Shown here one piece after another: positions 1-5,532 of a stretch of DNA of 64,000 bases. Numbering within the stretch: position 1 is the stretch's first letter; each line of letters begins with the position of its first letter. This stretch comes from Bombella saccharophila (lineage in GTDB: Bacteria; Pseudomonadota; Alphaproteobacteria; Acetobacterales; Acetobacteraceae), in contig NZ_JANIDW010000003.1 in assembly GCF_026385475.1 (NCBI RefSeq), positions 1 to 64,000 on the forward strand, in the 5' to 3' direction. The translations under genes were made by a program, and so were the position numbers. Below the pieces are notes generated by a model that saw only the letters and a program-made list of their open reading frames with translations, was not told where the DNA came from and ran no database searches.

Positions 1-242
1 AAGTCCTGTTTCTTCATAAAATTTATTATGATAAAGTTAACGTCCCTGAATGGTGATGGCTCTGTCAGCCGTGGCTTCCCTGCCGATTTGCTAGGGGTTG
101 CTTTGCTATATGATTCTATTTTGGGAATATACGTGCCCTAACGTGGGATATTGTATGTTGATTTTAAAAGGAAAGGCGTTACGGGCTGTATCGTTTTATT
201 GTACGGGACTGTGTTTTTAATATGATGCGGTGAGTGTCGATT
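1..242. other. Intergenic region downstream of cas9
   Basis: No convincing coding sequence lies between the window edge and the cas9 stop. A cas1 gene does not start directly after cas9 here, unlike the common cas9-cas1-cas2 order. The only structured element seen is the repeat-like unit near 62-97. Whether cas1, cas2 or an array lies further left cannot be judged. Confidence 0.5.
62..97 (+). repeat. Solitary CRISPR-repeat-like unit downstream of cas9
   Basis: Bases 69-92 are the reverse complement of 3461-3484 with 22 of 24 positions identical; the mismatches are adjacent and central. The right copy begins a tracrRNA-like structured RNA, so this copy has the sequence expected of the crRNA repeat that would pair with it, read on the plus strand. 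From memory, the core CGATTTGCTA resembles repeats of other alphaproteobacterial type II-C systems; that comparison is unchecked. The 36-base boundaries are a guess from usual repeat length. No second repeat lies 30 bases to either side, so this is not a visible array. It could be an isolated or decayed repeat, or on the minus strand a second anti-repeat in the cas9 3' region. A short GGCT/AGCC hairpin sits at its 5' edge. Confidence 0.5.
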
Positions 243-3200
243 TTAATCATAATGAGTGTGGGGTGGGGAGGGACATATTAACCCGTGCCACGTTCGGGTT
301 TCCTGTCTGATGAGCGACAATTCCCCGAAGCGATTGATAGAAAATTTTTGAAACAGGTCTAGTGTTTTTATGCCGATCCCCTTGTGTAATTGGGCCGTAT
401 TATTGGGGTCAGCCAAGGCTATGGAAGCGGTAGCGCGATTACTCCCCGCAAAATAGCCTTCCATGATGGTTCCGTTTTTGATGAGACGAATGTAACTACG
501 AGGGTAAAGACTAAAATGAAATTGCGCTCTCTCGTCCATGATGGGCCATTGTTCTTCCGGTTTATTGGCTAGGATAGCTCTATTAGGAGGAGAAGGCCAT
601 CTGGCTGGATTCATGACATGGTGGCGATAAATAGGCACCATAAACCATTCCTTTTTGCCGCTTTTGCCGTGCATTGTAAAAACATCCACGCGTACCATAT
701 CGCCCCGATCTGCCATCCCTCCTCGGACGGGGACGGCAGGCCTTCTATTGGTCATGAGCCGTACTTTACGTACGAGATGGCCTTCATGCGCTACGGTGCA
801 GGGAGTGCGCGGGGGGTTGTTGGTGGGTTTACCCGCTTTGATCCAACGATATAAGGCGTGGATAAGCTCGCTGTTACGCTCAGGGTCTTTAATTTTAGTA
901 AGGTCTGTTATTTTTAGAGAGTCGATGGCTTTACGCTCATAAATGACAGGGCGTGTTTCCTCTATACGTATTTGACGGATGGTAGCGCCGTGCCCTTCGC
1001 CGCGTGCGCGACGGCGCTCAGGGCGAGCGACTAATAATGCCGCATATTTTTTGCGTAATTCATCTTGGAAACCTATCCATGGTGGGGGAATGTTGCGTAG
1101 GAGACGGGGACGTCCAATTTGTTCATTATATTGAAAAGATTTTGTCAGTTTCTGGAGTTCGCGCTCGCTCACAGCGGCAACGACGGTAGCATCTAGCGCA
1201 TGATGGCGGCTGTCTGGGATACGGCGCCCATCAATTTTTTTGAGGGACTCAATATCCCAAGCATTACGTAAGGCTGCGGTAAGTGCCCCGGGGCGGGTAA
1301 AGACGCGCCGCGTGCCTCCTTTTTCGGCCCTTTGTCCAACCGGGTAGAAAATATGAGCCGCCTCTGCAATGAGGCGTGCTGCGTAACGTGTGTCGTTAAG
1401 ATTACGCCGGCGGAAACGCTTTTCAGTTTCGTGATTTCCTTTGAGCAAGAAGTTACGTTTTTTAATGCCTTTTGTATTCTTGCGTCCCTCCACAATAGTG
1501 GAAAATTGCTCCCACGCGGCTGGTCCCTTTGTCGTGTATATCCACTCATAAGGTGTTCGATTTTTCTTATCTTGGTTCGCTTTTGTGAAGCAAAGAGCCC
1601 TATTATTATAACTGCTATCGCCAAAGCGTGACCAAGGAAGAATATGATCAATTTGGATCATATTGCTCTCATCAAGGAGTAGGTAAGGCGCAATTGGCTC
1701 ATTAGTATAGCAGCACCGGCCGTCTTGTTCCTTCCATAAGCGATAGCGGAGCAATATATCGTCTGAGACATCCTCAAGGGATAATAAGGCACGAGCTTCT
1801 GTGCGTTCTTTTTCGCGTTGTTTTGTCCTTGCTTCAATGTTGCGTTCAATCAGGCGGCGTTTTTCTAGGCTATTGCCGACATCCCGGGCAAGTTCAATGC
1901 AAATGCACCCAGGGAGCCCCCAGCGGTTGCGCATAGCCCAGAGTTGTTTCATCCCCTCACTAATGGCTTTTTTCGCAATAGGGTTTGTGATGTCCTGGCG
2001 GAGGTCATCCATAAGGGCTTTAAATTTGGCTTTTGTGTTTACAATTTCACGGCCGTGGAATTTAGATGCAGCGTGATTATAACCGACAGCTTCGCATGCT
2101 TTATCGTAAGTGAGTCCCTGCTGAAGATAAGGAATCAGTTTCCGGGCGGCTTTATCTGAAAGAGAGGATGCCCCTTTAAATTTGGCGAATTTATTGGCAG
2201 AAAGAGCTTGTAGAATAAGGCTATAAGCCTGCGAGGGGAGGCCAAGCTTTGCGAGTTTCTTAGCGATTGTGTCTGTTAGTTCGTGGAAACTAATAATCCA
2301 AGCGGTTTGATCAAGCAGCTCAGGATGTGGGTGGAGTTGCCACCATAATGTATCTCCTAAGACAGATCGAAACGTGGCTGTGCCCGGAAAACTCTCCCCT
2401 GTGCGGCTTGTGATGTCTCGTTTTTCCTGCCCCAATGGGATAGTGGTAAAGCGGTGGTGGTCATGTAACTGGAGGAGATGGCGCAGTTTGTCGCCTGTTA
2501 GTTTCCGTGTCTTACTGGCTGTTAGATAAATCTGCTGTAATTCATCTGGGGTGAGAGGATATTCGTCTATTCCATCTGTAATGCGTAAATTTACTAAGCG
2601 GCAGAGAAGGCGAAATTGCTCAAATGAGGGAGAAAAGCGGGATGAGCGTTTTTCCCCCGGTTCAAAAGGACAAAATTCTACGAAACTACCACTATCTTGC
2701 ATGGGCCGTTGATGGAAAGCAATGGCAGTAAAAGCACGCTCAATCGTGGGGGTAGCCACGAGGCTGCCAAGGCGGCGTTGTGTGTTGAAGAGGATTCTTG
2801 TTTCTTGTTGTAAGGCCTTGCGGCTCATAGTCCGGTCAAATTGGCCTTCCCGGTTACGGCGCCTTTGGCTATAGGCGGGGTCCCGCGCAAACATCTCTCC
2901 AATTGTGCGATATTGGGATGCTCGCTCCTCGGTAGCTGTAAGAGCTGAGAGCATTTTATGATCATGAGTTGATGTTGTTTTGGGCACCCGTTTGGCAGAG
3001 GATTTGAAGCCCCGCCGTTTTGCAATGTGGCCTAATGCGGTAGCGAATTCCTGGGGTGTGAGAAGGCGGTCAAGCCCTTGGGCCCGCATTTCCCATGGGT
3101 CGGCCCCTATTTGACGGAAAGCCTCAGGATGGGGATGGTCGAGCAGGTGATACATTGCAAATAGATGGCGAATTTTTGCCATACGATGGCGACGTCGCCT

Positions 3201-3401
3201 GACGACGCGGCGGAGCAGACGATTATTCCGCCTAATGTGGTTGGTAGGGGTGCGGTCTTTATCGGTTTCGGGGACGTTAAAGCACCAGCTGCCCAGTGCT
3301 TCGATTTGTTGGGCCCCTTCTGTTTGATTGATGACAGCCCATCCACAGGAGCCAATGCCAATGTCAAGGCCAAATATATGCGATTCTTTGATACATGTCA
3401 T
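243..3401 (-). CDS. cas9: CRISPR-associated endonuclease Cas9, type II-C
   Basis: RNA-guided DNA endonuclease of a type II CRISPR system, 1052 residues, the compact size of subtype II-C. RuvC-I (GLDIGIGSCGWAVI) carries Asp13. An arginine-rich bridge helix spans about 57-82. RuvC-II has Glu503 in IELARD. HNH has QIDHILPW with His586 followed by Asn609 in KANQDK. RuvC-III has HHALDA with His734 and Asp737. All catalytic residues are therefore present and the enzyme should be active. The last roughly 270 residues would be the PAM-interacting region. The chosen ATG precedes RuvC-I by ten residues, normal for the family, but has no clear Shine-Dalgarno. No cas1 or cas2 is seen beside it, and a tracrRNA candidate is transcribed divergently just upstream. 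A -10-like TATACT lies about 35 bases before the start. Confidence 0.97.
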   Translation of the reverse strand: MTCIKESHIFGLDIGIGSCGWAVINQTEGAQQIEALGSWCFNVPETDKDRTPTNHIRRNNRLLRRVVRRRRHRMAKIRHLFAMYHLLDHPHPEAFRQIGADPWEMRAQGLDRLLTPQEFATALGHIAKRRGFKSSAKRVPKTTSTHDHKMLSALTATEERASQYRTIGEMFARDPAYSQRRRNREGQFDRTMSRKALQQETRILFNTQRRLGSLVATPTIERAFTAIAFHQRPMQDSGSFVEFCPFEPGEKRSSRFSPSFEQFRLLCRLVNLRITDGIDEYPLTPDELQQIYLTASKTRKLTGDKLRHLLQLHDHHRFTTIPLGQEKRDITSRTGESFPGTATFRSVLGDTLWWQLHPHPELLDQTAWIISFHELTDTIAKKLAKLGLPSQAYSLILQALSANKFAKFKGASSLSDKAARKLIPYLQQGLTYDKACEAVGYNHAASKFHGREIVNTKAKFKALMDDLRQDITNPIAKKAISEGMKQLWAMRNRWGLPGCICIELARDVGNSLEKRRLIERNIEARTKQREKERTEARALLSLEDVSDDILLRYRLWKEQDGRCCYTNEPIAPYLLLDESNMIQIDHILPWSRFGDSSYNNRALCFTKANQDKKNRTPYEWIYTTKGPAAWEQFSTIVEGRKNTKGIKKRNFLLKGNHETEKRFRRRNLNDTRYAARLIAEAAHIFYPVGQRAEKGGTRRVFTRPGALTAALRNAWDIESLKKIDGRRIPDSRHHALDATVVAAVSERELQKLTKSFQYNEQIGRPRLLRNIPPPWIGFQDELRKKYAALLVARPERRRARGEGHGATIRQIRIEETRPVIYERKAIDSLKITDLTKIKDPERNSELIHALYRWIKAGKPTNNPPRTPCTVAHEGHLVRKVRLMTNRRPAVPVRGGMADRGDMVRVDVFTMHGKSGKKEWFMVPIYRHHVMNPARWPSPPNRAILANKPEEQWPIMDERAQFHFSLYPRSYIRLIKNGTIMEGYFAGSNRATASIALADPNNTAQLHKGIGIKTLDLFQKFSINRFGELSLIRQETRTWHGLICPSPPHTHYD

Positions 3402-3435
3402 GCGATGTTTATTTGCACATCTATTGACATATTTC

Positions 3436-3443
3436 AGTATAAT
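3436..3443. promoter_or_regulatory. Overlapping divergent -10 elements for cas9 and tracrRNA
   Basis: TATAAT at 3438-3443 on the plus strand would start RNA near 3450, just before the anti-repeat. On the minus strand the overlapping TATACT at 3441-3436 would start cas9 mRNA near 3429, giving a leader of about 28 bases. The -35 matches are weak on both sides. Both assignments are by eye. Confidence 0.4.
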
Positions 3444-3449
3444 TCTTTA

Positions 3450-3550
3450 GAAGCTATGTAAGCAAATCGGTCGGGAAGCCACGGTAACATGGTTTTCCAT
3501 GTGAAGGATTACCTCTCCCTATTCATAAAGGGAGAGGGATTCCCCTTTCA
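3450..3550 (+). ncRNA. Candidate tracrRNA, divergent from cas9
   Basis: The anti-repeat at 3461-3484 starts AGCAAATCGG, like tracrRNAs of other alphaproteobacterial type II-C systems as I remember them. It is followed by a nested hairpin: GGTA/TACC (3483-3486 with 3510-3513) around ACATGG/CCATGT (3487-3492 with 3497-3502, loop TTTT). A 9-bp stem follows (3512-3520 with 3529-3537), then a pyrimidine-rich tail that may end transcription. A perfect TATAAT precedes it at 3438. The order anti-repeat, one or two hairpins, terminator-like hairpin is the type II-C tracrRNA plan. Start and end are approximate. Confidence 0.75.
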
Positions 3551-3581
3551 TTTAGGTGTAATAAAAATTTAATATTTTTGT

Positions 3582-4520
3582 TTAGAGGATAGGGCGGTAG
3601 ATGAGTATGCCGCGTCTTTCCTTGAGGTAGGTTGTAAGCGGTGTATCTACGACATAACGATGTTCTGGCAATGATGAAGCATTGCGGAAGAGAAGTTCAT
3701 GCCCGTGCCAAATGGCTAACCCGATATGAAAGACGTCTAAGCCCGGTAAGGGGCTGTAAATACCGATAACATCGCCATTTTTTATGCGTCCCTTTACATT
3801 ATTATGCCGTAAGTCCTCTAATAATGGGCCTGTGGGCAGGTAAGTGATGAGTCGTTTTTTTAAGGGAATCCCGGGTAAATAGCGATCCATTGATGGTGTC
3901 GTGCTGGGGGATGGTACGGATGATGATGGGATTTTAAGATTAAGTGTTTTGAGGATGCGTTGCGCATAGGGGAAATGGGGACCAAGATCGCGGCATAGCA
4001 CGGGTGTGCCATGTAGCCAGTCGCTAAAGAAGTGCCGGCGTTCGGTAAAAGCGACATGGTAATGGCGGTAGCGTGTGGCGATGAGGGCGTGGATGAATTG
4101 CTCTACGGTGAGGCTACGACTAGCGGCAAGAATGATTTCTACAAAGGTCATGCAATTTACCCCTCGCCATGAGAGGATGAGTTCCTCTTGCGTTGTGGCG
4201 GAGCCAATAAGTGGCTGGGCGAGATAGGGCGTCCCTTTCATAAATTGGGACATAAGGACGATGCGCTCTTGGCGGGAGCGATGAGGGGCTATGGCAATTA
4301 ATTGGCTGAGCTGCTGGCGTGTGGAATCAGATAATGCCTCAAGAGGGGGCGCATCGGAGGGTAATTTATGGTGTGTGGGGGCAACCTTGTGATGGGGATG
4401 GGGGGCTAAAGGGTGTCTTCTAGCATAAGTGGGACGATAAAGGCCGAGCCCCCCCATGCCGATACCGGCAAGGAAGGCCCGTCTTTTTAACGTGTGGTTG
4501 TGAGAATGACCTTTAGACAA
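3582..4520 (-). CDS. DUF1460 family secreted protein (amidase-like)
   Basis: Resembles the DUF1460 family, NlpC/P60-related proteins annotated as N-acetylmuramoyl-L-alanine amidase-like. The N-terminus has a twin-arginine-like signal (KRRAFLAGIGMGGLGL, Arg13-Arg14), suggesting export, possibly folded, to the periplasm. The probable catalytic cysteine is Cys123 in GVNCMTFVE, preceded by a GTPYL motif and followed by an RYRHYH...HFFSDW segment typical of the family. Length 312 is normal for such proteins. Its start overlaps the end of the upstream phosphodiesterase gene by 8 bases, so the two are probably translationally coupled. The true substrate is unknown; a peptidoglycan role is inferred from the fold. 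Confidence 0.75.
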   Translation of the reverse strand: MSKGHSHNHTLKRRAFLAGIGMGGLGLYRPTYARRHPLAPHPHHKVAPTHHKLPSDAPPLEALSDSTRQQLSQLIAIAPHRSRQERIVLMSQFMKGTPYLAQPLIGSATTQEELILSWRGVNCMTFVEIILAASRSLTVEQFIHALIATRYRHYHVAFTERRHFFSDWLHGTPVLCRDLGPHFPYAQRILKTLNLKIPSSSVPSPSTTPSMDRYLPGIPLKKRLITYLPTGPLLEDLRHNNVKGRIKNGDVIGIYSPLPGLDVFHIGLAIWHGHELLFRNASSLPEHRYVVDTPLTTYLKERRGILIYRPIL

Positions 4521-5532
4521 GGTAGCGTGCGCTTTGTTCAGCCATAAGAAAGTGGACGCCTATATCATTACCATCCTGGAGGTCACGATAGATCTGGCGT
4601 GTGGGGCATTCCCCGTCATGGAACGTTTCTTTGACATGGGAAATAATGACGCGTAACCCACGGATGTGATGACGTCCCCCGCATATATGGCCAAGCTCGC
4701 GTAGGCTCGTAAGGAGGTCTTTAGGGCGCAGCTGGCCACAAAGTGCATCATCTGGGTGGGTGTCGGGATATGTTACGCCAATAATGATCGTATTGAGCGT
4801 GTTATTTTGTACCAGAGGGGCAACAGCTTCCCACAAATTATGAAGATTTTGTGGGCCGTCTGGCTGGTCTGCCTGTGTATCTCCGAAATAGAGGATGGCA
4901 CTACCTTTTTGTTGAATTAGAAAGGCCGTGGAGGTCGTACTCGCATGGCTGAGGGGCCATGCTGTGATATTCATGGTCGTATCTTGTAGTGTGTGTGACT
5001 GACCTGGCTCCATATTATGGTAGGTGTATTTCCCAATACGCGGCTTTGGCCCTTTATCACCCATGGCACCCCAAACACGGTTATTGAAGAGGTTCTCAGC
5101 TAAAATAGCGTTAGTTTGGGAGAGCGCATAAAGGGGCTTTGGTGTATCCTCTGGTGAAGTTAGGACGAGCCCTGCGACATGGTCGAGATGGGCATGGCTG
5201 ATCAAATAAGCCCGTATAGTTTGTTTGAGGACATGCCCAGCCCGGCTGAGGGTGGAGTTGGGCATAATGGGGATGTCATTGAGGGCTCCTACTGCCTCTG
5301 CGCGTTTAAGGCCGTGGCCTAATGTCCCAGCATCGCAGAGGACAGCCTCATTGGTACCGAGGGGGCGGATGAGATAGGAGGATAGATTTCCATCAGCAAC
5401 GCCACTGCGGACCCCCAGTGCGATGACCTCAAAATGAGGATGAGCATCTGTGAAGGTAACAGGGGTACTTGTCGCGTTGGTGCGGGGTGTTTGTAACCGA
5501 TCACGAAGTGTTTTTAAGTGGCGTAAGGGCAT
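4513..5532 (-). CDS. Class II 3',5'-cyclic-nucleotide phosphodiesterase
   Basis: Likely hydrolyses cAMP to AMP using a metallo-beta-lactamase fold. The signature HAHLDHVAG (His113, His115, Asp117, His118) matches the class II phosphodiesterase zinc motif. CDAGT near residue 67 and FGDTQAD further on supply other expected ligands. Length 339 fits PDE1/CpdP-type enzymes. No clear signal peptide is visible, so it is probably cytoplasmic. It is the first gene of a two-gene unit with the DUF1460 protein and overlaps that start by 8 bases. A general metallo-hydrolase role is the alternative. The gene is separated by about 150 bases from the divergent DUF3465 gene. Confidence 0.8.
   Translation of the reverse strand: MPLRHLKTLRDRLQTPRTNATSTPVTFTDAHPHFEVIALGVRSGVADGNLSSYLIRPLGTNEAVLCDAGTLGHGLKRAEAVGALNDIPIMPNSTLSRAGHVLKQTIRAYLISHAHLDHVAGLVLTSPEDTPKPLYALSQTNAILAENLFNNRVWGAMGDKGPKPRIGKYTYHNMEPGQSHTLQDTTMNITAWPLSHASTTSTAFLIQQKGSAILYFGDTQADQPDGPQNLHNLWEAVAPLVQNNTLNTIIIGVTYPDTHPDDALCGQLRPKDLLTSLRELGHICGGRHHIRGLRVIISHVKETFHDGECPTRQIYRDLQDGNDIGVHFLMAEQSARYLV

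Follow-up and report, generated by a model that had tools for sequence, protein, structure and literature searches.

Self-targeting spacers typically occur as single members of a CRISPR array, and CreA-type units comprise one or two repeats outside an array. Several published systems come close to the locus reported here. The type II-C system of Bombella has been surveyed in 16 genomes, with sp. AS1 among those named, and the survey lists 32 unique spacers landing in genes (PMC12282179). The locus that we analysed has the same Cas9, tracrRNA, repeat and gene order as the genus, and differs from that system in lacking cas1 and cas2, in having one spacer and in carrying a guide to its own gyrB. 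The main text of the survey contains no word starting with "gyrB", "PAM" or "self-target".

Three further cases offer partial parallels. The hisS spacer of Pelobacter carbinolicus likewise matches a housekeeping gene that is essential to its own host (PMC2923632); it is one spacer of a type I-E array (PMC6990116), whereas the system here is type II-C and the spacer is the only one left. CreA and related ectopic-repeat RNAs likewise show a repeat outside an array giving rise to a crRNA-like RNA against a host site, but CreA works with the type I Cascade and represses a toxin RNA (PMC9458426), whereas here Cas9, full pairing and a coding region are involved. Francisella scaRNA is likewise a tracrRNA-pairing unit near cas9 with a crRNA role outside normal immunity, and pairs partly with 5' UTR DNA (PMC6990116). 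A preliminary description of the present locus had likened its solitary repeat-like unit to scaRNA. The comparison holds for the predicted pairing with tracrRNA through the repeat part and fails for the target, which the guide matches at 24 of 24 positions inside a coding region rather than by partial 5' UTR pairing. Titles and abstract openings of the literature on Bombella CRISPR, solitary repeats, Cas9 self-targeting and crRNA-like autorepression held no report of this locus.

cas9 and tracrRNA

The window (the whole stretch analysed, 64,000 nucleotides of Bombella saccharophila) begins at base 1 of contig C11, so that its left side is an assembly end. A cas9 gene encoding 1052 amino acids lies on the minus strand at 243..3401 (TIGR01865, 577.9 bits; cut-off 100). 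Alignment showed that its RuvC and HNH catalytic motifs are intact, as expected of a type II-C Cas9. In the alignment of the PI domain, Asn occupies the position of Nme1Cas9 H1024.

Sequence constraint on cas9 was assessed against Parasaccharibacter apium AS1, which is labelled as the same species and has the same guide/gyrB pair as the window strain. Between the two strains, cas9 differs in 7 synonymous and 2 nonsynonymous codons (P = 0.0013 under 3:1), an estimate resting on nine codon differences; eight neighbouring genes differ in 35 synonymous and 12 nonsynonymous codons, so that cas9 behaves like its neighbours. Because the one-guide state is common to both strains, this constraint postdates it. 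From the outgroup consensus, cas9 differs in 77 columns, compared with 74 for that of G003, a relative with an array. In AS1, a homopolymer near cas9 codon 250 contains a single-base indel that shifts the frame (L025 / L146); none of the other eight genes compared has a coding indel, and two further small indels in that stretch are intergenic. This frameshift is either a real recent loss or a sequencing error.

On the plus strand, the tracrRNA was placed at 3450..3545, with approximate, inferred ends. It contains the anti-repeat (3461-3485, plus strand), located by pattern search and alignment of relatives, and a terminator-like hairpin (3530-3544, plus strand). A promoter-like site upstream (3414..3443, plus strand; TGCACA-18-TATAAT, 10/12) is weak, as shuffles of the region yielded a mean of 0.7 such sites. 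Rfam gave no match in bases 1-4000 at E up to 1.

Repeat and anti-repeat appear to have changed together. Inspection by eye showed C-G in the window where the relatives have a T-A pair, and repeat and anti-repeat each lack one base at the same step compared with the relatives. The predicted cognate duplex reaches -49.4 kcal/mol, compared with -38.8 to -43.9 for the window repeat with the anti-repeats of four relatives. The reverse contrast is weak: the four relatives' repeats gave -45.0 to -46.6 with the window anti-repeat versus -45.1 to -50.2 with their cognate partners, and the G002 repeat is predicted to pair more strongly with the window anti-repeat than with its own. By sequence and predicted duplex, the repeat described below is thus expected to pair with the tracrRNA. 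Judged by the intact motifs, the repeat/anti-repeat co-change and the constrained cas9, the locus looks kept, with the AS1 frameshift standing against this.

Related loci and the missing cas1 and cas2

A cas9 search of 60 genomes, including the window's own, gave matches in 9. Four of nine other members of the genus carry the gene (G001, G002, G003 and, in two frames, G009), and all four also have type II cas1 (TIGR03639, 287-293 bits; cut-off 120) and cas2 (TIGR01573, 68-69 bits; cut-off 24.5). In G001, G002 and G003 the order is cas9-cas1-cas2-array in the same orientation, with 36-nt repeats and mostly 30-nt spacers; pattern searches recovered 4, 4 and 14 repeats, respectively, in stretches that end at contig ends. 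G009 (Bombella sp. ESL0385) has one full repeat, and its cas1 and cas2 are open beside the split cas9 (L024). A chromosomal target had been expected for its single guide; none was found in 11 genus genomes (E up to 1) or in viral contigs.

The window genome differs from these relatives. No II-C cas1 was found in it: the best PF01867 score was 27.5 bits, compared with 97-102 bits for the II-C cas1 of the four relatives, and the G001 cas1 protein as query retrieved nothing. The preliminary description had noted that cas1 does not follow cas9, and the only cas1 found is indeed of type I-E and on another contig. No cas2 lies beside cas9, and the locus thus lacks the cas1 and cas2 of a complete adaptive II-C system. 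Bases 104..242, where relatives have cas1, cas2 and the remainder of the array, hold no recognisable remnant. Local alignments of 93-245 to the four relatives, made for cas1/cas2 remnants, scored no higher than the best of 100 shuffles each. Separately, the type I-E cas1 (L027 3070-4074, G000:C13; TIGR03638, 352 bits) indicates that the host also possesses a type I-E system, at least in part.

A solitary repeat at the contig end

The only full-length type II-C repeat lies at 68..103 on the plus strand, as defined by the whole-genome pattern and the relatives' repeats. Bases 69-92 are identical to the reverse complement of the tracrRNA anti-repeat at 22 of 24 positions, which reproduces the match first reported, and the best other place for this 24-mer in the 64 kb, the anti-repeat aside, reaches 16/24. 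Searching the whole genome (1,908,656 bases, 17 contigs) with up to 3 mismatches, as had been suggested, returned two places, the unit and the anti-repeat; the reversed control pattern returned none. Compared without gaps with the repeats of four relatives, 21-22 of the first 24 bases agree and only 5-6 of the last 12, so that bases 92-103 have drifted.

As the preliminary description stated, no second copy lies at spacer distance: the window holds no second full repeat on either side of 68-103, the left side being the contig end. On the leader side, bases 2..37 (plus strand) stand in repeat register and are perhaps a degenerate first repeat. They show a weak 16/36 identities to the genus repeat, a score that in this single expected register is reached by about 0.9% of window positions, and bases 27-32 read TATGAT at the place of TATGGT in the relatives' repeats. 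The window, starting at a contig end, thus has one full repeat and at most one degenerate one, rather than an array of at least two. A consensus scan found no promoter-like site in bases 1-250, and no terminator-like site was seen around the unit.

The contigs of the window strain and AS1 end within 2 bases of each other. In G001, G003 and G009, arrays start at most about 110 nt from tRNA-Met or a truncated end of it and run in the same direction as that gene, and 5S rRNA lies beyond the array-adjacent tRNA-Met in the G009 copy L072 and in G003:C4 (L078). A 346-base query of the G009 tRNA-Met/rRNA region had no match in the window genome or AS1 at E up to 0.01; both assemblies seem to lack this region. 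Assembly breaks at an rRNA operon would account for the nearly identical contig ends. In G003, the leader-proximal spacer and one repeat occur a second time (G003:C4:389891-389964; L053, L078), next to a different tRNA-Met/5S flank and not on the contig that carries the cas genes. Solitary crRNA units may thus be able to spread from one rRNA operon flank to another.

Given the order of elements in relatives, the unit is best interpreted as the leader-proximal repeat, with the intervening elements up to cas9 presumably lost. The suggestion of a decayed last repeat was therefore half right: it is mainly the last 12 bases that have drifted, and the best interpretation of the unit is a leader-proximal repeat that survived the loss of the other repeats and spacers.

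The guide and its match to gyrB

By the position and length seen in relatives' arrays (30 nt being usual in three of them), a single 30-nt spacer precedes the repeat at 38..67 on the plus strand. Its last 24 bases, the predicted guide (44..67, plus strand), are identical to nt 224-247 of the coding sequence of a host gene that we take, from a reading of its protein, to be gyrB. The match (G000:C1:613088-613111, 24/24) has the same sense as gyrB. The proposal to examine bases 1-61 as a possible guide thus led to the main result. With bases 1-242 as DNA query against 11 genus genomes, bases 44-67 matched, beyond the locus itself, at 24/24 once each in the window genome and AS1. For a 24-mer guide, 1.4e-8 exact matches are expected by chance. 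The self-match is 24/24 over the guide and 25/30 over the whole spacer, a near-perfect match to the host chromosome: 5 of the 6 spacer bases 5' of the guide differ from gyrB, and the probability that five random differences over 30 positions all fall in the first 6 is 4.2e-5.

The mature crRNAs of Defluviimonas, an alphaproteobacterium, provide the comparison for this border. In its type II-C system, the array is transcribed opposite to the cas genes and mature crRNAs hold 24-25 nt of spacer and 24 nt of repeat (PMC7708072). On this basis, the gyrB match covers just the expected guide, and by the same analogy (PMC7708072) bases 68-91 (plus strand) are the predicted tracrRNA-pairing part of the repeat. 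The 24-nt border could also stem from a single recombination event instead of selection. In G009, sequence shared with two other places in the genome, one of which adjoins tRNA-Met, 5S and 23S rRNA, ends 24 and 22 nt before the repeat, which warns that recombination may also set the guide border in the window.

The gyrB genes of nine congeners have 2-4 mismatches to the guide. Scanning 84,980 species genomes with two free positions in the guide yielded four stretches, namely the AS1 locus, AS1 gyrB, one in ESL0385 and one in Swaminathania salitolerans (gyrB-like context). CreR-type autoregulation employs a guide against the promoter of the cell's own cas gene. The guide here is not of that type, as in its own genome it matched nothing besides itself and gyrB at E up to 0.001. 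We rejected the idea that the guide came from a phage or plasmid: the exact guide had no match in viral contigs, the best E values were 0.6 for phages (best 6 of 27 records) and 2 for plasmids (best 6 of 9), and no phage or plasmid record covered 80% of the guide query.

The putative PAM of the gyrB site

In type II-C Cas9s, Asp at the place of Nme1 H1024 goes with C at +5, and His or Asn with a purine (PMC9433092). Alignment placed Asp at this position in G003 and Asn in G001, G002 and the window Cas9. The host's own gyrB has A at +5, which fits the Asn/purine class and argues against escape by PAM loss at +5. Among congeners, gyrB has C at +5 in G001, G002, G004, G006 and G007, T in G003 and G005, G in G009 and A in G008.

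Protospacers of relatives were used for comparison. Three of the 14 G003 spacers gave 9 distinct protospacers, all with C at +5. Three of the four G002 spacers gave one protospacer each, of which two, on a window-genome contig with a relaxase-like gene, have A at +5 (30/30 and 25/30 identities) and the third, on a Gluconacetobacter diazotrophicus plasmid, has G (27/30). At +6 all three have a purine versus C in gyrB; these three cases, from a relative that shares the Asn, are the only information on +6 to +8. An N4CC PAM, drawn from the G003 spacers alone, would have made the host gyrB a PAM-escape site. It was ruled out because the Asp of the G003 Cas9 and the Asn of the window Cas9 imply different PAM classes. 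The count leaves out two 21/30 matches in L061, taken as chance (+5 of G for a G001 spacer and C for a G003 spacer), as well as spacer matches that were gapped, weaker or without a locus. Exact scans of viral contigs with relatives' spacers gave 0 matches for six of seven patterns; the seventh hit one viral contig, which was not used as the flanking bases do not continue the spacer.

Additional spacer matches were recorded. The contig matched by two G002 spacers (L143, G000:C16, 3673 bases; 30/30 and 25/30) carries an MbeA-like relaxase gene at 185.6 bits, below the cut-off of 500. A 30/30 match to a G003 spacer lies at L047 (G000:C1:901548-901577), with weaker copies in several congeners, and is perhaps a prophage gene. 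A 37-nt spacer of G001 (L021 ~5152-5189) matches its own chromosome over 38 nt (G001:C2:238281-238318, L141), in an ORF that is weakly SctL/FliH-like and adjoins a fliG-like gene (202 bits, below the cut-off of 226.7). With T at +5, outside the purine class, this self-match may be harmless.

Discussion

We regard the anatomy of the locus and the match between guide and gyrB as firm, with high confidence. Activity of the guide on gyrB, like any function of the locus, is a prediction. Of the three options offered in the preliminary description, a guide-like RNA with a single repeat fits best, with a full repeat and a predicted 24-nt guide on its 5' side. Our preferred explanation, to which we assign a probability of roughly 0.55, is a one-spacer, non-adaptive type II-C locus with one predicted gyrB-directed crRNA that is tolerated as gyrB is poorly cut. 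The locus would be the remnant of an ordinary type II-C locus of which cas9, tracrRNA and one crRNA unit are left, and a single deletion running from the 3' end of cas9 to the leader-proximal repeat could account for the loss of cas1, cas2 and the other repeats and spacers. The predicted crRNA would join a 24-nt guide (44-67) to some 24 nt of repeat (68-91), and, judging from its sequence and from Defluviimonas, would pair with the tracrRNA and load Cas9. Because the guide matches host gyrB perfectly, the complex would direct Cas9 against the cell's own chromosome. Tolerance would most likely come from inefficient cutting of gyrB, owing to an incomplete PAM beyond +5, low expression or both.

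The main rival, possible though unlikely, is a domesticated regulator, in which Cas9 with its single crRNA binds gyrB, tunes its transcription and is kept for this non-immune use. It would account for a cas9 that looks constrained after the one-guide state was reached, for the retention of guide and pairing part between drifted spacer bases on one side and drifted repeat bases on the other, and for the A at +5, which fits the PAM class. That constraint, however, amounts to nine codon differences, and AS1 has a frameshift. Being in mRNA sense, the guide would pair with the template strand inside the coding region. Such a position is a poor place for a block of transcription by dCas9. CreA pairs partly with its target. 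A complete match, by contrast, is one that active Cas9 would be expected to cut, and scaRNA, too, pairs partly (PMC6990116). We are somewhat more doubtful that selection has kept cas9, tracrRNA and exactly one crRNA as a gyrB-directed device outside immunity, one that acts on the cell's own gyrase gene or tells its own gyrB allele from the mismatched alleles of congeners.

Less probable again is a silent relic, with the unit untranscribed, Cas9 without a guide and the gyrB spacer an inert accident. The lack of a promoter-like site near the unit, the drifted first repeat, the cas9 frameshift in AS1 and the two-frame cas9 of Bombella sp. ESL0385 would agree with this, but in the window strain Cas9 and the repeat/anti-repeat pair are conserved together. 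It is improbable that the guide is harmful and Cas9 restrained by an anti-CRISPR of a resident mobile element, although self-targeting spacers can be tolerated in this way according to a review (PMC6990116) and the genome includes the contig with the MbeA-like, sub-cut-off relaxase gene. A second anti-repeat or repeat-like element for self-regulation of Cas9, suggested earlier and in keeping with a unit that adjoins cas9, can practically be dismissed, as the unit is in repeat rather than anti-repeat sense and its guide matches gyrB only.

The locus also shows that a solitary repeat needs to be interpreted along with the 24 bases that precede it. Without the 24-base match the unit would be a decayed repeat; with the match it becomes a compact natural experiment in Cas9 self-targeting, in which a Cas9 that is seemingly maintained has a single remaining guide, and this guide matches a gyrase gene perfectly. 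The host is a honey-bee-associated bacterium and offers a test case for living with, or using, a self-aimed Cas9. One small locus of a bee symbiont thus makes testable whether self-targeting spacers are survived accidents or selected uses.
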